This document shows positions 6,274 through 14,236 of a stretch of 64,000 nucleotides of DNA, one piece after another; the stretch's first letter is position 1; every line of letters begins with the position of its first letter. The translations under genes were made by a program, and so were the position numbers. Source of the stretch: Fuscovulum blasticum DSM 2131 (GTDB lineage: Bacteria; Pseudomonadota; Alphaproteobacteria; Rhodobacterales; Rhodobacteraceae). The stretch lies in contig NZ_PZKE01000001.1 in the NCBI RefSeq assembly GCF_003034965.1, positions 310,001 to 374,000 of the forward strand, given 5' to 3'. Below the pieces are notes generated by a model. It had not been told where the DNA came from and ran no database searches. It worked only from the letters and a program-made list of their open reading frames with translations.

Positions 6274-7983
6274 TCAGAACAGGAAATAGCGCTGCGCCAG
6301 CGGCAGCTCGGTTGCCGGGGCGCAGGTCAGCAATTCGCCATCGGCACGCACCTCATAGGTTTCGGTATGCACCTCGATCTGCGGCATGGCGCTGTTCAGC
6401 ACCATGTCGGCTTTGCCGATGTTGCGCGTGCCCTGCACCGCGACGGTTTCCTTGGCCAGCCCCAACTGCCCGCGCAAGCCGTCTGCCTGTGCCGCGGCCG
6501 AAACGAACAGCACCGCCCCCCGCTCGACAGCCCGGCCAAAGGCCCCGAACATCGGCCGCGAATACACCGGCTGCGGCGTGGGGATGCTGGCATTGGTATC
6601 GCCCATCTGCGCCATGGCGATGCTGCCGCCCACCAGCACCATCTCGGGCTTGGCCCCGAAGAAGGCGGGCGACCAGATCACCAGATCGGCGCGCTTGCCC
6701 ACTTCGATTGATCCGATCTCGCGGCTCATCCCCTGCGCGATGGCCGGGTTGATGGTGTATTTCGCCACATAGCGCCGGGCGCGGATATTGTCGTTGTCGC
6801 CCGTCTCCGCGGCCAGCCGCCCGCGCTGCTGCTTCATCTTGTGGGCGGTCTGCCAGGTGCGGGTGATCACCTCGCCCACCCGGCCCATGGCCTGACTGTC
6901 CGAGGAAATGATCGAGAACGCCCCCATGTCGTGCAGGATGTCTTCCGCCGCGATGGTCTCGCGCCGGATGCGGCTTTCGGCAAAGGACACGTCTTCCTGC
7001 ACCCGCCGGTCCAGGTGGTGGCAGACCATCAGCATGTCCAGATGCTCTTCGATGGTGTTCACCGTGTAGGGCATCGTCGGGTTGGTCGAACTGGGAATCA
7101 CATTCGGCGCCGAGACCACCTTGATGATGTCGGGCGCATGGCCGCCGCCCGCGCCTTCCGTGTGGAAGGCGTGGATGGTGCGGCCCCGAATGGCGGCCAA
7201 GGTGTTTTCGACAAAGCCCGACTCGTTCAGCGTGTCGGTGTGGATCATCACCTGCACGTCCATGTCATCGGCCACCGACAGGCAGCAGTCGATGGCGGCG
7301 GGCGTGGTGCCCCAGTCTTCATGCAGCTTCAGCGCGCAGGCGCCGCCCTTCACCATTTCGACCAGCGCCTCGGGCCGGCTGGCATTGCCCTTGCCCGAAA
7401 GGCCGAAGTTGATGGGGAAGGCATCCAGCGCCTGCAGCATCCGCCCCAGATGCCACGGCCCCGGCGTGCAGGTGGTGGCCAGCGTGCCATGCGCCGGGCC
7501 GGTGCCGCCGCCCAGCATGGTGGTGATGCCGGAATGCAGCGCGTCCTCGACCTGCCCCGGCGCGATGAAGTGGATATGGGCGTCCATCCCCCCGGCGGTG
7601 ACGATCCGCCCCTCGCCCGCGATGATCTCGGTCCCCGGCCCGATGATGATGGTCACGCCGGGCTGGGTATCGGGGTTGCCCGCCTTGCCGATGCCGGCGA
7701 TGCGGCCGTCGCGCAACCCGATGTCGGCCTTGTAGATGCCGGAATGGTCAAGGATCAGCGCATTGGTGATGACGGTATCCACCGCCCCCCCGGCGCGGCT
7801 GATCTGGCTTTGTCCCATCCCGTCACGGATGACCTTGCCACCGCCGAACTTCACCTCCTCGCCATAGGTGGTGAAGTCGCGCTCCACCTCGATGATCAGG
7901 TCGGTGTCGCCAAGGCGAACCCTGTCGCCGGTGGTGGGGCCGAACATCAGGGCATAATCTGCGCGGGAAATAGTGTGTGCCAT
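6274..7983 (-). CDS. ureC: Urease alpha (catalytic) subunit
   Basis: A 569-residue amidohydrolase that hydrolyses urea to ammonia and carbamate at a dinuclear nickel site. Visible ligands are HIH at 136-138, the carbamylated lysine in [10 protein letters not shown] (Lys219), HTDTLNESG, the [12 protein letters not shown] loop and the mobile flap MVCHHLD with its conserved Cys and His. I start at ATG 7983 rather than the in-frame GTG just before it, because AAGGA lies about 8 bp upstream. Unlike the rest of the operon it is not contiguous with its upstream neighbour: a 450 bp AT-rich stretch separates it from ureB, so it may have its own promoter. Confidence 0.97.
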
Positions 7984-8433
7984 CACGCTATCCTTCGGAT
8001 TGTTTCTTACTTTTGACGCCTGTCCGACGCGGACGCAAACAAATTAGACTCATTGAAAGGTATCGGTTTGAAAATGAAAGCAAAACATGATTTGGCAAGA
8101 TATTGCCTATTCTTGTATGATCTTGATTTTGTTTTGAAAAATTTTTGATCAACGCGTGTAAATTGTCACGCAACTTGTTGGATTTATTTGCGGAGCATAA
8201 GTTTTTCAATCTGACGCTCGAAAGTTGAAAATCAAAGTCATTATCAGAAATAGCTTCGTAGCCGCCTTATTCTGCGTATTTGATGGATTGGTCATCCACT
8301 GGAATTGGCGCTCTAAGGAAAGGCTAACCTGCATGTCGCACACGGAACTTGTCCTGACTCTGCTGAGTACTGCAATCACTGCATTCATAGCTTTAGGCCG
8401 CTATCGGGGCTGGTTTTGAAGTGTGAAACATTG
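7984..8433. other. AT-rich gap inside the urease operon, no convincing gene
   Basis: This 450 bp stretch between ureB and ureC differs sharply in composition from everything around it. Over 8041-8280 I count 81 G or C in 240 bases, about 34 percent, in a window that is mostly well above 60 percent. It includes a small interrupted palindrome (GGCAA-GATA-TTGCC, 8094-8107). Open frames in it begin with TTG and match nothing I know, except a possible 28-residue hydrophobic peptide at 8333-8419. It may be a regulatory leader or promoter for ureC, or a remnant of an insertion. Confidence 0.6.
8333..8419 (+). CDS. Possible 28-residue single-span membrane peptide
   Basis: A short ATG frame, MSHTELVLTLLSTAITAF followed by IALGRYRGWF, preceded by purine-rich AAGGAAAGG about 10 bp upstream. 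The middle is one hydrophobic helix and the tail is basic and aromatic. It is antisense to the urease operon and sits at the edge of the AT-rich gap. Nothing else supports expression, so this is a weak call. Confidence 0.2.
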   Translation: MSHTELVLTLLSTAITAFIALGRYRGWF

Positions 8434-8739
8434 TCAGAGATCCCCCATCACCTGGGCATTGAAGCCGAACACGCGGCGGGCGCCGCCAAGCGGCACCAGC
8501 CGCACCTCGCGGGTCTGGCCCGGCTCGAACCGGACGGCGGTTCCGGCCGGGATGTCCAGCCGCTGCCCGCGAGCAGCCGCCCGGTCGAAGGACAGCCCCG
8601 GGTTGGTTTCGGCAAAGTGGTAATGGCTGCCCACCTGCACCGGCCGGTCGCCGGTGTTTGCCACCCGCAGCACGGTGACCGGGGCGCCGGCGTTCAATTC
8701 GATGTCGCCGGGCGCTGTCAGGAATTCTCCGGGAATCAT
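8434..8739 (-). CDS. ureB: Urease beta subunit
   Basis: A 101-residue structural subunit of the urease trimer. It starts [16 protein letters not shown] and contains the family segment [18 protein letters not shown]. The length is typical. It lies 9 bp after ureA. The following operon gene ureC starts only 450 bp further on, after an AT-rich gap. Confidence 0.97.
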
Positions 8740-8748
8740 GACAACCTC

Positions 8749-9051
8749 TCAGCGGATGGGGTGGTGGACGGTGACCAGCTTGGTCCCGTCGGGAAACGTC
8801 GCCTCGACCTGCACCGAATGAATCATCTCGGGCACGCCCTGCATACACTGGCTGGCGGTGATGACATGGGCGCCGGCCTCCATCAGATCGGCCACGCTGC
8901 GGCCGTCACGCGCGCCTTCCACGACGAAATCGGTGATCAGGGCAATCGCTTCGGGGTGGTTCAGCTTCACGCCACGGGCCAGCCGGTTGCGCGCCACCAT
9001 GGCGGCCAGGCTGACCAGCAGCTTTTCCTTTTCGCGCGGGGTCAGGTTCAT
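8749..9051 (-). CDS. ureA: Urease gamma subunit
   Basis: A 100-residue subunit with the standard start [20 protein letters not shown] and the [20 protein letters not shown] segment near the C-terminus. The ATG at 9051 overlaps the ureD stop (ATGA), which fixes the start. The open frame upstream of it lies within ureD and is not used. Confidence 0.97.
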
Positions 9052-9881
9052 GTGGTCAGTCCTTGCATCTGCCATGTTCTTGGCAGGGGGGCTACGGTCA
9101 GCCGGGCGGCGATGCGGCCCAGCCATTGCTTCAGCGGCCAGCCGTCGGGGGCCAGCGCCCGGGCGATGCAGCGGCCGTTCCAGCCGGTGACGGCGGCCTG
9201 CACCCCCGGCGGCACGGGCAGGGCACGCAGGGCATCCACCGCCGCCTCGGCCCCCGCACCGCAGAAGGCCACCACGGCAAAGGCGACATTGCCGGCCAGC
9301 AGCGCGGGCCTGTCACCCATGGCCAGAACGCCGGCATCCAGCCGCTGCGCCTCGATCCACAGCGGGCGGCCGGCCAGCGTGACATGGCGGCGGTCGAACA
9401 GGCGGGCGCGGCGCGGCGCCTCGCCCATGGCGCGGCGGCCCAGCACCACGCTTTCGGCCAGCACCACGCTGGCGCCGGGGGCAAGGGCAATCTCGGTCTG
9501 CCGGTCCAGACGGCTGTCTTCGAACAGGATGGTTTCCTGTGGCAGCCACACCAGCCGCCCGCCCGCGCCGACCTGCGCTACCACCTCAATCCGCGCGGCC
9601 CCGTCGCGCGCCAGATAGGCCCGTTCCGCGGTTTGCGTGGTGGCCGTGGCCGTCACCCCGTCGCCCAGCCGCATCGAATAACCCAGCCGGTCGCCCGAAG
9701 TCAGCCCGCCCGAGGTATTGAGGAACACCGCCTCGGGTGCCCCGGCCACATTGGGCAACAGCACCTTGGCTGACCCGGCCTGCGCCAGATCGGTCAGAAC
9801 CGCCCGCCCGTCCCGCAGGGCGAAACCCACACGCGCAAGGCCGCGCGACCGTTCAAGGGCGAGGACGGGTTCCTGAATCAT
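9048..9881 (-). CDS. ureD: Urease accessory protein UreD
   Basis: About 277 residues, the scaffold (UreH/UreD) that binds apo-urease and recruits UreF and UreG for nickel insertion. Recognisable segments are [16 protein letters not shown] and [14 protein letters not shown] chose [18 protein letters not shown] at 9881, which fits the family length. The frame is open to 9947 but that would add an unlikely extension. It is the first gene of the urease operon. Confidence 0.92.
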
Positions 9882-9963
9882 CCGTCCAGTCTGCCGTGGT
9901 CTGCACGGCAGGGTATCCTGCGCCGGATGCGCAGGAGCGCACGGCAATGGTCAGACGGGTCCG

Positions 9964-9982: not shown

Positions 9983-10012
9983 TTTGCCTGAAAACCGGGC
10001 GAAACGAAAAGA

Positions 10013-10744
10013 TCAGAAGGTGATGTCCGGCAGGCTGTCGAAGGCCCCCTTCAAGGCATCGCCCCAGCCCTTCGAAATGGTCTGGAAATAGGGGTCTTCG
10101 GCCCTGATCCGCCGCTCCATCCCGCGTCTCAGACTGTCGCGTTCATAGATGTGCAGATCCAGCGGCAGCCCGACCGAGAGGTTGGCCTTGATGGTGGAAT
10201 CGAAGCTGACCAGCAGCAGTTTCACGGCGGCCTCGAAGCTCATGCTCGGATCGAAGGCCCGAACCAGGATCGGGCGGCCATACTTGGTTTCGCCGATCTG
10301 CAGGAAGGGCGTGTCATCGCTGGCCTCGATGAAGTTGCCTTCCGGGTAGATCAGGAACAGACGCGGTTCGCTGCCCTTGACCTGCCCGCCCAGAATGATG
10401 GTGGCGTTGAAGGCGGAATCCGCCCGCATCCCGCCGCCGGCCCGTTCCGCTATGATGTCAACCAGCAGTTGCCCGACATGCCGCGCGATCTGGTACATGG
10501 ACGGCAGGCCCAGGATTGACGGCGTGCGGTCCCCCGGTGCCTTCATCCGTTCGTCGATGGTGGAAACCACCGCCTGCGTGGTGGCCAGGTTTCCGGCCGT
10601 CATCAGGGTAACAACCGTATCGCCGCCATCGGTCCAGGTGAACATCTTGCGGAAGGTCGAGATATTGTCGACGCCCGCGTTGGTGCGGGTGTCCGACATG
10701 AACACCAGCCCCCGGTTCATCTTGAGGCCAACGCAATAGGTCAT
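10013..10744 (-). CDS. Anbu-type proteasome-like peptidase
   Basis: A 243-residue member of the bacterial Anbu branch of the proteasome/HslV fold. It begins MTYCVGLKMNRGLVFMSDTRTNAG. After Met removal, Thr2 would be the N-terminal nucleophile, and the strand with FMSDTRT is typical of Ntn hydrolases. Anbu assembles as rings or open helices in studied species, and its natural substrate is unknown. It is the last gene of a four-gene operon with a transglutaminase-fold protein, an alpha-E protein and an ATP-grasp enzyme, 9 bp after the transglutaminase. The operon layout is known from comparative genomics and suggests a peptide synthesis or tagging and degradation system (inference). Confidence 0.9.
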   Translation of the reverse strand: MTYCVGLKMNRGLVFMSDTRTNAGVDNISTFRKMFTWTDGGDTVVTLMTAGNLATTQAVVSTIDERMKAPGDRTPSILGLPSMYQIARHVGQLLVDIIAERAGGGMRADSAFNATIILGGQVKGSEPRLFLIYPEGNFIEASDDTPFLQIGETKYGRPILVRAFDPSMSFEAAVKLLLVSFDSTIKANLSVGLPLDLHIYERDSLRRGMERRIRAEDPYFQTISKGWGDALKGAFDSLPDITF

Positions 10745-10753
10745 CGCACGCTC

Positions 10754-11563
10754 TTACTGCTGCATCTGTTCCACTTCGAGCGCCACCGACAACCGTTCGT
10801 CGGCGCGACCGAAGCGGGTGCCAGTTACAGGCGCGGCCTCGGCATAGTCCAGCCCCGTCGCGATGCGGACATAGGCGGCATCGGGGCATTTGTTATGGGT
10901 CGGGTCAAAGCCGACCCAGCCCAGATCGGGCAGGTGAACTTCGGCCCAGGCATGGGTTGCTTCCTGCACCACCCGGTCGGGCATCATCAGATAGCCCGAG
11001 ACATAGCGCGACGGCAGGCCCATCAGCCGGGCCGCCGTCACGAAGACATGCGCCAGATCCTGACAGACGCCATGACCGGCGGCCAGCGTATCCTCGGCCG
11101 TCCAGCCCACATGGCTGATGCCGGTTTCATAGCGCACCGCTTCATGGATCGCGGCCATAAGGGCGTGCGACCGCTCCAGTGCCGTGCCCGGTGTGATCTG
11201 GCCAACCAGCTTGCGGCTTGCGGTGCCGGGGCGGGTCAGCGCGGTCTGGCGCAGGAACATCCACAACGGCATGAAACCGCCCTGCACCCCCACGACGCCG
11301 GCCGTATCGCTCACCTCGACCTCGCCCTCGCTGACCACGGCGATCTGCCGGGTGCCGGGTTCGAAGCTGACCAGATCCACCCGGTTGCGGTGGGCGTCAT
11401 CGAAGGACAGTTCCTTTTTACCGCCGGTGATGGTGGTCTGCCAGGCCAGCACCGTCTGGGTGGCGCCGTTCTTTGGCGTCAGCCGCAACTGTTGCAGCGC
11501 ATAGGGCACCGGCTCGTCATAGTCATAGGTCGTGGTGTGGGTGATCCGCAGGCGCATGGGCAT
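10754..11563 (-). CDS. Transglutaminase-like cysteine peptidase family protein
   Basis: About 269 residues. An N-terminal beta domain (MRLRITHTTTYDYDEPV) is followed by a papain-like transglutaminase core. The likely catalytic triad is Cys in GHGVCQDLAH, His in ATHAWAEV and Asp in FDPTHN. Such proteins can hydrolyse or transfer amide bonds. The ATG at 11563 overlaps the alpha-E stop (TGATG). An alternative ATG at 11557 starts directly at MRLRITH and may be the true start. A GTG just upstream is less likely. It sits between the alpha-E gene and Anbu in the operon. Confidence 0.9.
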   Translation of the reverse strand: MPMRLRITHTTTYDYDEPVPYALQQLRLTPKNGATQTVLAWQTTITGGKKELSFDDAHRNRVDLVSFEPGTRQIAVVSEGEVEVSDTAGVVGVQGGFMPLWMFLRQTALTRPGTASRKLVGQITPGTALERSHALMAAIHEAVRYETGISHVGWTAEDTLAAGHGVCQDLAHVFVTAARLMGLPSRYVSGYLMMPDRVVQEATHAWAEVHLPDLGWVGFDPTHNKCPDAAYVRIATGLDYAEAAPVTGTRFGRADERLSVALEVEQMQQ

Positions 11564-12507
11564 CACTCGTAAAACCGGAAGTCAATTTCACACTGGCGGC
11601 CGATCATGCCCAGCTCATACAGGAATTCCTGAATGAACTCGTGCAGGCCGGTGTCGAAGATCGCCTCGATAGGCTGCGACAGCCGGTTTTCGATCAGCGT
11701 CTGGGCCAGCGCCAGCGTGGCAGAGCGGGCGCCGTAATCGGCCGCCAGATAGCGCAGGTTGTCGGCGATCTTGTCCACGCAGAAGGCAAGGCTGCGCGGC
11801 ATCCGCCGGTCAAGGATCAGGAACTGCGCAATTTCCAGCGGTCGCACCGTCTGGCCATGGGTCATGCGGAACCCGCCCTCGGCGCTGACAGACCGCAGCA
11901 GCGATTCCCACTGCACATTGTCCAGCGACGACCCCACCGACAGGGCCGAGGGCAGCAGGACATAGTATTTCACATCCAGCAGCCGCGCCGTGTTGTCGGC
12001 GCGTTCGATGAAGCTGCCGATCCGGGCGAAGTTGTAGATCTCGTTGCGCAGCATGGTGCCGGCCATGGCGCCCCGGACATGGGCGCTGCGATGGCGGATG
12101 CGGGTCAGCACTTCCGGCAGGTCGCGTTCGGGCACCCGGCGGGCCAGCGCCTCTTTCAGAAGCATCCAGCTTTCGTTGACGCTTTCCCAGACCTCGCGCG
12201 TCAGGGCGGTGCGCACCAGACGGGCGTTGTTGCGCGCCGATTCCACCACCGACAGCACCGACGAAGGGTTGTCCCGGTCGCGCAGCAGCCAGTCGATGGC
12301 GTTTTCCTTGGTCACCGCCGGGTATTTGGCCAGATAGCTGTCAAGGCTTGAGGCCGTCATCAGCACGCTTTGCCATTCGTCGTCCGACCGGCTGCGCGTC
12401 AACGCGATGCGCTGCCCGGCTTCAACCAGCCGCGCGGTGTTCTCGCTCCGCTCAAGATAGCGGAACATCCAGTACAGCCCGCCTGCCGTCTTGCCCAACA
12501 TCGTCAT
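11563..12507 (-). CDS. Alpha-E domain protein
   Basis: A 314-residue all-helical protein. It begins MTMLGKTAGGLYWMFRYLERSENTARLVE, with the conserved RYLERSENTAR helix repeated later as GSFIERADNTARLLD. The biochemical role of alpha-E is not established; it nearly always travels with circularly permuted ATP-grasp proteins. Start and stop both overlap neighbours by a few bases (ATGA with the ATP-grasp gene), so expression is probably stoichiometric. Confidence 0.92.
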   Translation of the reverse strand: MTMLGKTAGGLYWMFRYLERSENTARLVEAGQRIALTRSRSDDEWQSVLMTASSLDSYLAKYPAVTKENAIDWLLRDRDNPSSVLSVVESARNNARLVRTALTREVWESVNESWMLLKEALARRVPERDLPEVLTRIRHRSAHVRGAMAGTMLRNEIYNFARIGSFIERADNTARLLDVKYYVLLPSALSVGSSLDNVQWESLLRSVSAEGGFRMTHGQTVRPLEIAQFLILDRRMPRSLAFCVDKIADNLRYLAADYGARSATLALAQTLIENRLSQPIEAIFDTGLHEFIQEFLYELGMIGRQCEIDFRFYE

Positions 12508-13928
12508 TCGTCCAGCACCCAGGTGTCCTTGGTGCCCCCGCCTTGCGACGAATTCACCACCAGAGACCCTTTCTTCAACGCCACCCGCGTCAGCCCGCCG
12601 GGCGTGATCGTCACCCCCTCGGGCGAGACCAGAACATAAGGCCGCAAATCCACATGGCGTGGCGACAGGCCCGAATTGGTAAAGATCGGCACGGTGGACA
12701 GCGCCAGCGTCGGCTGGGCTATATAGTTGCCGGGCTTCGCCTCAAGTTTGGCACGGAATTCCGCGATCTCGCGCTTGCTGGCGGTGGGGCCAACCAGCAT
12801 TCCATAGCCGCCAGACCCGTGCACTTCCTTGACCACCAGTTCCGGCAGATGGGCCAGAACGTATTTCAGTGCCTCGGCGTCGTTGCAGCGCCAGGTGGGC
12901 ACGTTCTGCAGCAGCGCCTTTTCGCCGGTGTAGAACTCCACGATCTCGGGCATGTAGCTGTAGATCGCCTTGTCGTCGGCAATGCCGGTGCCCGGCGCAT
13001 TGGCAATGGTGATGCCGCCGGCGCGATAGACATCGAAGATGCCCGGAATACCCAGCGTGCTGTCGGCGCGAAAGTTCAGCGGGTCCAGGAAATCGTCGTC
13101 GACCCGGCGATACAGCACGTCGATCGGCTTGTAGCCCTGCGTCGTGCGCATCGCCACCTTGCCATCGACAACCCGCAGGTCATGCCCCTCGACCAGCTCG
13201 ACCCCCATCTTGTCGGCCAGGAAGCTGTGTTCGTAATAGGCGCTGTTATAGAGGCCGGGCGTCAGCACCGCGACAACAGGCTCCTCCGCCGAATTGGCCG
13301 GTGCGCAGGCCGAAAGGCTGCGCCGCAACGCTTGCGGATAGTTCGACACCGGCTGCACGCGGTTCTTGGCGAACAGCTCGGGGAACATCTGCAGCATGGT
13401 CTCGCGGTTTTCCAGCATGTAGCTGACACCGCTGGGCGTGCGGGCATTGTCTTCCAGCACGAAGAATTCGTTTTCGGCCGTCCGCACGATGTCGATGCCG
13501 ACGATATGGGTATAAACCCCGCCCGGCGGCGTGACCCCCACCATCTGGGGCAGGAAGGCCGCGTTCTTCTCGATCATCTCGACCGGAATCCGCCCGGCGC
13601 GCAGGATTTCCTGCCGGTGGTAGATGTCGTAAAGGAAGGCGTTTATCGCCCGCACCCGCTGTTCGATGCCGCGGCTCAGCCGGCTCCATTCGCGGCCGCT
13701 GATGATGCGGGGAATGATGTCGAAGGGGATCAGCCGCTCGGCCGCCTCGGCCCGGCCATAGACGTTGAAGGTGATGCCGGTCAGCCGGAAGATTTCCTCG
13801 GCTTCGCGCTGCTTTCGTCGCAGGCGCGCGGCGTCCTCTTCCTTCATCCAGCCATCGAAGGCGGCGTAGGGCGACCGCAGCACCCCATCCCGCCCATGCA
13901 TCTCGTCAAAGATCACCGTGTCACTCAT
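12504..13928 (-). CDS. Circularly permuted ATP-grasp type 2 protein
   Basis: A 474-residue predicted amide-bond ligase of the circularly permuted ATP-grasp family. Visible blocks are VLEDNARTPSGVSYMLENR, VDVLYRRVDDDFLDPLNF-like metal-binding segments and the glycine-rich ATP loop VKEVHGSGGYGMLVGP, followed by YIAQPTLALSTVP. It is predicted to activate a carboxylate as acyl phosphate and join it to an amine. The substrate is unknown. It is the first gene of the operon. I see no strong ribosome site before the ATG. A 308 bp divergent region with two stem-loops lies upstream. Confidence 0.92.
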   Translation of the reverse strand: MSDTVIFDEMHGRDGVLRSPYAAFDGWMKEEDAARLRRKQREAEEIFRLTGITFNVYGRAEAAERLIPFDIIPRIISGREWSRLSRGIEQRVRAINAFLYDIYHRQEILRAGRIPVEMIEKNAAFLPQMVGVTPPGGVYTHIVGIDIVRTAENEFFVLEDNARTPSGVSYMLENRETMLQMFPELFAKNRVQPVSNYPQALRRSLSACAPANSAEEPVVAVLTPGLYNSAYYEHSFLADKMGVELVEGHDLRVVDGKVAMRTTQGYKPIDVLYRRVDDDFLDPLNFRADSTLGIPGIFDVYRAGGITIANAPGTGIADDKAIYSYMPEIVEFYTGEKALLQNVPTWRCNDAEALKYVLAHLPELVVKEVHGSGGYGMLVGPTASKREIAEFRAKLEAKPGNYIAQPTLALSTVPIFTNSGLSPRHVDLRPYVLVSPEGVTITPGGLTRVALKKGSLVVNSSQGGGTKDTWVLDE

Positions 13929-14236
13929 GTTCGCAAGTCTGTGATGCCATCGGCCGATTTGGCAAGCACCTGCTTGCGCCGGACGGCATTTCCCTGTGCA
14001 TCTGCCCTTGAAACAGGCAGGCTTGGCGTCCCTGCGGTTGTTCCTGCGGGCGCATCATCACCCCAGACCGGAATGATGCCGTCCGCACGGCCCCTGGGGC
14101 CCCTTGGCCGTGCGGGGCCACGGGCCGTTTCACAAAGAGTTCAGCGCCATTTTCCCGCAGTCTGGCGGGCCGCATTGCCTGCGGGCGCGGTGACAGATAC
14201 CTTGACGGGCAGGCCGATCCAAGGAGACGACTGCCG
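13929..14236. promoter_or_regulatory. Divergent intergenic region with two stem-loops
   Basis: This 308 bp gap drives the ATP-grasp operon leftward and the TPR gene rightward, and holds no gene I can support. It contains two perfect inverted repeats. One is GCATCAT/ATGATGC at 14052-14079. The other is CCGCACGGCC/GGCCGTGCGG at 14083-14115, whose loop itself contains GGGGCCCC. AAGGAG at 14221-14226 is the ribosome site for the TPR gene. No clear -35/-10 pair was recognised. Confidence 0.5.

Follow-up and report, generated by a model that had tools for sequence, protein, structure and literature searches.

The closest described counterpart of the locus reported here is the Anbu operon of Valas and Bourne (2008) and Iyer et al. 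(2009; both as cited in PMC5666114 and PMC6376114), which comprises the same four genes in the same order as an operon of Fuscovulum blasticum DSM 2131, encoding an ATP-grasp ligase, an alpha-E protein, a transglutaminase-fold enzyme and the proteasome-like protein Anbu. The operon lies in a 64,000-nucleotide stretch of contig NZ_PZKE01000001.1 (positions 310,001 to 374,000; hereafter the window) from a 3.59-Mb genome assembled in 69 contigs. As a representative of the published family it is unremarkable, a known system whose purpose is unexplained; the new evidence narrows its function towards nitrogen starvation. Compared to the published operon, the window adds the urease genes ureDABC on the same strand, and NtrC-type sites (one of them weak) before the operon and before ureD.

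Papers on the structure or the relatives of Anbu leave its function open (PMC5666114, PMC6376114, PMC8665760), in agreement with an earlier note on this DNA, made from its letters alone, which held the purpose of the four genes to be unsettled. The statement in that note that the set is known only by comparative genomics is, in contrast, outdated: structures of Anbu and of an ATP-grasp relative (PDB 3n6x) exist, the Yersinia bercovieri ATP-grasp protein releases phosphate from ATP (PMC6376114), and NtrC dependence has been described in Pseudomonas putida. In that species PP_2685-2688, alike by description (a proteasome-beta-like gene, a transglutaminase gene and two further genes), are induced when nitrogen is limiting, probably under the control of NtrB/NtrC (PMC7801951, citing Hervas 2009); in data from 2012, PP2685 (Anbu) was up 11.1-fold (PMC3325844). 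In an ntrC mutant of Burkholderia cenocepacia, DUF404/407 and DUF403 genes, which rank among those that depend strongly on NtrC, changed by log2 -8.2 and -9.4 (PMC5491218), and in marine metagenomes these domains associate with domains of urea metabolism (PMC3597751). Three further systems invite comparison. Anbu shares with HslV and the 20S proteasome its membership of the proteasome family and an N-terminal threonine with an aspartate and a lysine, but differs in its open-ring architecture (a split-ring dodecamer in other Anbu proteins) and in having no known unfoldase (PMC5666114). A system of homologous domains, represented by a paralogous copy in the window genome itself (locus L264, 4117-10733, contig C4), combines a transglutaminase-DUF2126 protein, a fused ATP-grasp/alpha-E protein and a small transglutaminase; it differs in this fusion, in the extra predicted amidoligase domain DUF2126 and in that no Anbu gene was noted there. 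B. cenocepacia I35_5080-83 seems related to this fused system, its genes being unfused. The RimK-like ATP-grasp system of PMC12239564 is different from the Anbu operon.

The four open reading frames (ORFs) that the earlier note had placed at 10013-13928 on the minus strand were recovered at exactly these coordinates, and each protein scored above the curated Pfam cut-off for its family:

12504..13928, minus strand: circularly permuted ATP-grasp ligase, 474 residues, first gene of the operon (CP_ATPgrasp_2, 551 bits)
11563..12507, minus strand: alpha-E protein, 314 residues, overlapping the ATP-grasp gene by 4 bases (Alpha-E, 285 bits)
10754..11566, minus strand: transglutaminase-fold cysteine enzyme, 270 residues, overlapping the alpha-E gene by 4 bases (Transglut_core, 85.5 bits; Bact_transglu_N, 74.5 bits)
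10013..10744, minus strand: Anbu, a proteasome-fold N-terminal nucleophile (Ntn) hydrolase, 243 residues, last gene of the operon (Proteasome, 31 bits)

A 9-base gap separates the last two genes, the other two junctions being the 4-base overlaps, a spacing that fits predicted translational coupling and probable cotranscription of the four. A search of 220 related loci recovered all four genes in 193, and 178 of these 193 complete loci share the order of the window on one strand, the median gaps being -1, -5 and +34 bases; because this order is so common, the arrangement is not a matter of chance. The closest named relatives of the window Anbu are from Rubellimicrobium (79%) and from a Rhodobacterales metagenome-assembled genome (78%), and the upstream neighbor of the operon is a divergent TPR gene. 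Inspection by eye revealed no evident signal-peptide-like N-terminus in any of the four proteins, and the module is therefore placed in the cytoplasm.

Residue conservation was examined in 197 to 220 relatives aligned by tblastn, some of them from the same species. Thr1 of Anbu was a threonine in 217 and a serine in 3 of the 220 relatives, and Asp17 and Lys32 were invariant in all 220; the three residues match the triad given for the Y. bercovieri protein, YbAnbu (PMC6376114). The triad of the transglutaminase-fold enzyme was similarly kept (Cys in 197/198, His in 197/198, Asp in 198/198). In the ATP-grasp protein, D146, E159, D160, N161, K320 and K367 were invariant in 199/199 sequences and R429 in 198/198, and the D..ED-N cluster, the lysines and the glycine-rich loop were invariant or nearly so (197-199 sequences), so that the loss of ATP-grasp active-site residues, which the earlier note had named as a finding that would undo its reading, was not observed. 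We take these conserved residues to be candidate metal and ATP binders, their roles being assigned by analogy. The candidate catalytic residues of the operon enzymes are intact.

Searches of PDB matched the window Anbu to five Anbu sequences (5loy, 5nyj, 5nyf, 5nyw and 5lox; best E 2e-88), the ATP-grasp protein closely to 3n6x (E 9.5e-192 over residues 4-473) and the transglutaminase-fold protein to 3isr (E 5.6e-11). As a 20S proteasome subunit the window Anbu scored 26.2 bits with the NCBIfam model arc_protsome_B, against a cut-off of 224, and it gave no match to the HslV model. Of the description "proteasome-fold peptidase" in the earlier note, the fold is borne out by the PDB Anbu chains; the activity is not, YbAnbu having shown neither peptidase activity nor a detectable specific interaction with its operon partners (PMC6376114). 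"Peptidase", for a protein classed here by its sequence, is a name taken from the fold.

To characterize the control DNA of the operon, the regions upstream of the ATP-grasp gene were collected from 76 alphaproteobacterial loci (the window and 75 of 80 loci of its family, the other 5 being without a usable region) and searched de novo. The search returned the near-palindrome TGCC-TAAAAATT-GGGCA with a log-likelihood of 408, versus 143-155 on three shuffled sets run with fewer restarts and iterations. It reached at least 14 bits in 39 of the 76 training regions, and its best place started 85-135 bases upstream of the ATP-grasp gene in 48 of them. The same motif stood at 14 bits or more before P-II genes at 15 of 25 loci from 12 genomes, most of which had been picked for a strong operon site, versus 1.75% of 800 random windows; 27 P-II loci had been gathered, of which two were without an ORF and about ten without a located start codon, the stretch scanned in the latter being approximate. 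The P-II gene of the window genome (contig C5) carries TGCCTAAAAAACGGGCAG, which scores 20.6 bits. P-II genes (glnB, glnK) are classical NtrC targets. Caulobacter NtrC, for example, binds at glnBA and glnK (PMC10274813). Because the motif precedes genes known to be controlled in this way, the palindrome is most likely a binding site for NtrC.

In a validation set of untrained loci from the same family, and thus related to the training set, 21 of 36 reached 14 bits versus 1.5% of 972 control windows, 4 of the original 40 loci having been dropped (two without an ATP-grasp match and two duplicating training sequences). In our sample of the phylum (299 Pseudomonadota genomes with 103 Anbu places, all but those of G016 and G149 being among the loci read), loci with at least 14 bits were found in families f10 (6/6), f13 (2/2) and f1, the family of the window (6/9). 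Families f2 and f8 carry sigma-54 sites in place of the NtrC-type motif. Scoring of the -24/-12 element over 11 positions in 87 ATP-grasp upstream regions, two of which were dropped for length, yielded sites of at least 10/11 in 19 of 85 loci, spread over 8 of the 29 families, compared to 4 of 1068 upstream regions of other predicted genes from these loci and a shuffle mean of 0.5 (Fisher p ~3e-19, uncorrected for relatedness). None was found upstream of the ATP-grasp gene in f1 at this threshold. Family f34, the identification of which as Pseudomonas-like is a guess, has sigma-54 sites; none was found at the window operon, and the probable NtrC of its genome is devoid of the GAFTGA loop.

Two motif places flank the operon of the window:

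14003..14020: weak NtrC-type palindrome TGCC-N9-GGCA, 75-92 bases upstream of the ATP-grasp start (position weight matrix score 11.9 bits)
9985..10002: NtrC-type site between Anbu and ureD (position weight matrix score 13.96 bits), the second best place in the 64-kb window

The former lies at the usual distance, much where relatives have their stronger sites; when the window is cut into 637 overlapping 300-base tiles, 15 score at least 11.85 bits, those covering the site included. For the latter, 4 of 637 tiles reach 13.9 bits, again including those over the site. With an AT-rich site of 12.2 bits in the gap between ureB and ureC, three of the six best distinct motif places in the 64 kb belong to this locus, the cut of six having been chosen post hoc. 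In the paralogous system L264, the best two places of a 12-kb stretch (12.5 and 10.9 bits) are upstream of the first gene. Sigma-54 control of the window operon was rejected, the best match in 450 upstream bases being 7/11, and a simple scan found no sigma-70 consensus promoter. The probable NtrC of the window genome (locus L262) scores below the NCBIfam cut-off and was matched in two pieces around a missing loop, which is the GAFTGA loop; the probable NtrC proteins of G047, G058, G249 and G287 have it. Loss of GAFTGA has been reported for Rhodobacterales NtrC, and that of Rhodobacter capsulatus is reported to work with sigma-70 (PMC10274813), so that a protein of this type fits with the absence of a sigma-54 site at the window operon. 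A regulator from G235 (L263) was set aside as an NtrC candidate, as it resembles another response regulator.

Directly downstream of Anbu are urease genes that the earlier note did not mention:

6274..9881, minus strand: ureD, ureA, ureB and ureC (UreD, 155 bits; Urease_gamma, 154 bits; Urease_beta, 150 bits)

The start of ureD was taken as the ATG at 9881, the longest ORF beginning at 9947, and a 570-residue ORF (6274-7986) was named ureC on account of its position and of counterparts in relatives, 78-80% identical, that adjoin ureA and ureB. In the phylum sample, Anbu was found in 102 genomes, alpha-E in 156 and urease gamma in 101; alpha-E was present in all Anbu genomes but one (101/102; the exception is G094) and in 55 genomes without Anbu. 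Of 101 Anbu loci (100 loci of the sample plus the window), 87 gave an ATP-grasp match of 380 bits or more within the stretch. In tests that ignore phylogeny and genome size, urease accompanied Anbu in 57 of 102 genomes versus 44 of 197 others (Fisher p 1.6e-8). Among alpha-E genomes without Anbu, the corresponding figures (24/55 versus 77/244) did not differ significantly (p 0.11). Within the family of the window (179 genomes), the urea transporter component UrtA was found above cut-off in 97 of 127 Anbu genomes versus 19 of the 52 without Anbu (p 8e-7), the corresponding counts for urease being 105 of 127 and 33 of 52 (p 0.01).

Physical linkage is less common. A ureA or urtA gene lay within 10 kb of Anbu in 6 of the 127 family genomes, where ~1.04 would be expected from uniform placement in 3.9-Mb genomes with urease and urtA independent (p 7e-4; leaving out the window raises it to 4e-3). 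Counted by locus, urea genes were present in 8 of 80 family loci and, in the phylum sample, at L004 and L006 (2/100 loci). They adopt about seven arrangements:

operon then urease, same strand: the window, L004
urease then operon: L214
urease divergent: L213, L170
urtABCDE then operon: L006, L140
operon then urtABCDE: L119, L130, L173
urtA divergent: L210-L212
urease convergent: L148, L151, L179

The urt genes of L006 were identified by NCBIfam models above cut-off and those of other loci by tblastn identity to L006 (at least 52%); L215, at 16 kb, is among the linkages listed and outside the 10-kb count. The linkage is recurrent but minor. Adjacency of urease and Anbu as a general rule proved unsupported, ureA lying within 12 kb in three genomes only of the phylum sample (~1.2 kb in the window and G047, 11.4 kb in G235).

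Variation among the operons bears on the chemistry of the third gene product. In 3 of 180 loci (L067, L074 and L086), a predicted zinc metallopeptidase of the Peptidase_Mx family stands beside the core genes and the transglutaminase is missing; each of these genomes encodes exactly one Peptidase_Mx protein, and none has a Bact_transglu_N match above cut-off anywhere in the genome, a single weak match falling below it. Peptidase_Mx thus looks like an unrelated putative hydrolase replacing the transglutaminase, and such a replacement favors an enzyme that hydrolyses over one that cross-links, which suggests a hydrolytic role for the transglutaminase-fold protein as well. A large transglutaminase-DUF2126 protein lies within the stretch in 16 of the 180 loci. 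In Sinorhizobium meliloti 1021, the pSymB locus L265 comprises genes for the ATP-grasp, alpha-E and transglutaminase proteins and gave no Anbu match in the stretch; two NtrC-like places (12.9 and 11.6 bits) lie ~200 bases upstream; none of 27 plasmid records with Anbu is from Sinorhizobium, the S. meliloti chromosome being outside that search.

From these observations we judge it an even prospect that the four genes form a cytoplasmic nitrogen-scavenging ligase/hydrolase module under NtrC control. When glutamine is low, active NtrC would bind the palindrome upstream of the ATP-grasp gene and switch on the operon along with P-II genes; in many relatives, urea uptake and urease would be induced at the same time for the use of poor nitrogen sources. 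The ATP-grasp enzyme, for which alpha-E is probably an obligate partner, would proceed via an acyl phosphate to form an amide or peptide bond; the transglutaminase-fold (or zinc) enzyme would next hydrolyse an amide or peptide, and Anbu would act as a second hydrolase, of the Ntn type. A poor nitrogen source or reserve may in this manner be captured as a conjugate that is reopened to free usable nitrogen. The intact candidate catalytic residues, the NtrC-type sites of relatives, the urea neighbors and the apparent zinc-peptidase replacement all point in this direction; from them we infer what each step does chemically, the sequence in which the steps occur, the substrate and the binding of NtrC. 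Regulation is the best-supported step, the chemistry resting on the protein families and on the phosphate release by the Y. bercovieri ATP-grasp protein (PMC6376114). More tentatively, and with rather less than even confidence, we propose that the Anbu operon is a widespread proteobacterial nitrogen-scavenging pathway in which two unrelated hydrolases would act after an ATP-driven ligation and free nitrogen from an amide or peptide, alongside urea uptake and urease. Either a cysteine or a zinc enzyme could serve as the first hydrolase, and Anbu would be a metabolic Ntn amidohydrolase rather than a protease. If so, this would explain the failure of Anbu on standard proteasome substrates (PMC6376114).

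That nitrogen starvation governs the operon would suit protein recycling equally well, and a published proposal (PMC6376114) has the ATP-grasp and alpha-E proteins, perhaps with the transglutaminase-fold enzyme, tag proteins from which Anbu removes the tag or which it degrades during nitrogen starvation. The closest solved relatives of the window protein being Anbu chains and its Pfam family that of proteasome subunits, this proposal has structural appeal; we nevertheless find it unlikely, given that Anbu genes show no association with genes for AAA+ ATPases (PMC5666114), that YbAnbu displayed neither peptidase activity nor a detected partner interaction (PMC6376114), and that some operons, such as the S. 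meliloti pSymB stretch, have no Anbu, from which it follows that the ligase side may work without it. Quite unlikely in our estimation is the manufacture of a specialized peptide metabolite or nitrogen reserve, as put forward by Iyer et al. in 2009 (cited in PMC5666114 and PMC3597751), in which the peptide or amide product would be stored or exported and the hydrolases would trim or recycle it. The DUF2126 amidoligase domain predicted in the paralogous system of the window genome speaks for such a product, but reserves are normally built up when nitrogen is abundant; the control sites and the expression data in the literature, by contrast, point to limitation, and no carrier or precursor gene stood out in a rough clustering of neighboring genes. 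Besides the core genes and one likely antisense artefact, that clustering yielded groups belonging to large superfamilies; the most widespread of these, ABC-transporter ATPases (17 loci, 8 families), includes some importers of urea or polyamine type. Finally, the link to nitrogen could be an accident of lineage, urease merely lying next to Anbu and the palindrome belonging to another regulator. Linkage to urea genes is indeed a minority pattern (6/127 family genomes, 2/100 phylum-sample loci) and NtrC binding is a prediction; yet the variety of urea-gene arrangements, the occurrence of the same motif at P-II genes and of sigma-54 sites in other families, and the induction by nitrogen limitation in P. 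putida (PMC7801951, PMC3325844) make such a coincidence very improbable.

Several observations weigh against the nitrogen-scavenging module under NtrC control. The upstream site of the window itself is weak (11.9 bits) and sigma-54 control was rejected there; the motif reached 12 bits in none of the loci of f5 (0/3), f6 (0/6) and f2 (0/9) and in one of eight in f8, and f5 and f6 were also devoid of sigma-54 sites scoring at least 10. Most Anbu loci have no urea genes nearby, and the co-occurrence tests take no account of phylogeny or genome size. Two genomes (G284 and G031) have the ATP-grasp, alpha-E and Anbu genes with neither Bact_transglu_N nor Peptidase_Mx, in a search that did not include a lone Transglut_core, which disfavors a strict need for that hydrolytic step. 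On the experimental side, no amidase activity of Anbu was detected on standard proteasome substrates (PMC6376114), and Fuchs et al. reported unchanged expression under various other conditions (PMC5666114). In a 2020 table for P. putida, the Anbu gene rose only slightly (1.12, 4.81 and 1.45) while its three partners were up 11- to 37-fold; one of the three strains (whichever of the three columns is its own) was an rpoN mutant, in which the partners still rose, and strict sigma-54 control is therefore disfavored (PMC7801951).

Anbu is thus a protein with solved structures and, in the portions of the Anbu literature covered, no known substrate. The shared NtrC-type site, the recurrent urea neighbors and the apparent zinc-peptidase swap narrow the question to which nitrogen compound cells devoid of the operon fail to use or release without ammonium, and the place to look would be nitrogen-limited cells from which the urea pathways have been removed to unmask the role of the operon. 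We found no report of conserved alphaproteobacterial NtrC sites at Anbu operons, of their juxtaposition with urt or ure genes or of the zinc-peptidase replacement, in a literature survey that was not aimed directly at these points and covered few subscription journals.

The alpha-E protein, for its part, is an internal duplication, as judged from its sequence, that repeats the motif ER-x-(D/E)-N-T-A-R-L: its halves align with a score of 76, compared to a mean of 28 and a maximum of 44 in 300 shuffles. A strict search found two copies of the motif in 19 of 42 family members, and one copy is therefore often altered. The AlphaFold2 model is all-helical with a mean predicted local distance difference test (pLDDT) score of 92.9; it matched no PDB fold at E <= 0.001 (best E 0.6), and the sequence gave nothing convincing in PDB either (best E 0.078). 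The portions of the Anbu literature covered do not mention the duplication, no literature search having been aimed at it.

In family f33, Anbu occurs with neither an ATP-grasp nor an alpha-E gene nearby (L040, L045, L047, L048, L050, L062, L065 and L068), and these genomes nonetheless hold alpha-E. A mutS gene, identified by Pfam, adjoins Anbu in L040, and members of the same cluster adjoin it in L047, L050 and L062, which looks like synteny of the lineage.

Between ureB and ureC of the window, ~450 bases (7987-8433) are AT-rich, falling to 32% G+C in a region of 64%, and gave no match in the plasmid collection; in L004, unlike in the window, the two genes abut. This stretch may be the remnant of an insertion or a control region. 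An Rfam match to the 5'ureB sRNA (86.7 bits, 7542-7831, plus strand) lies antisense within the ureC ORF and probably reflects mere conservation of the urease coding sequence.

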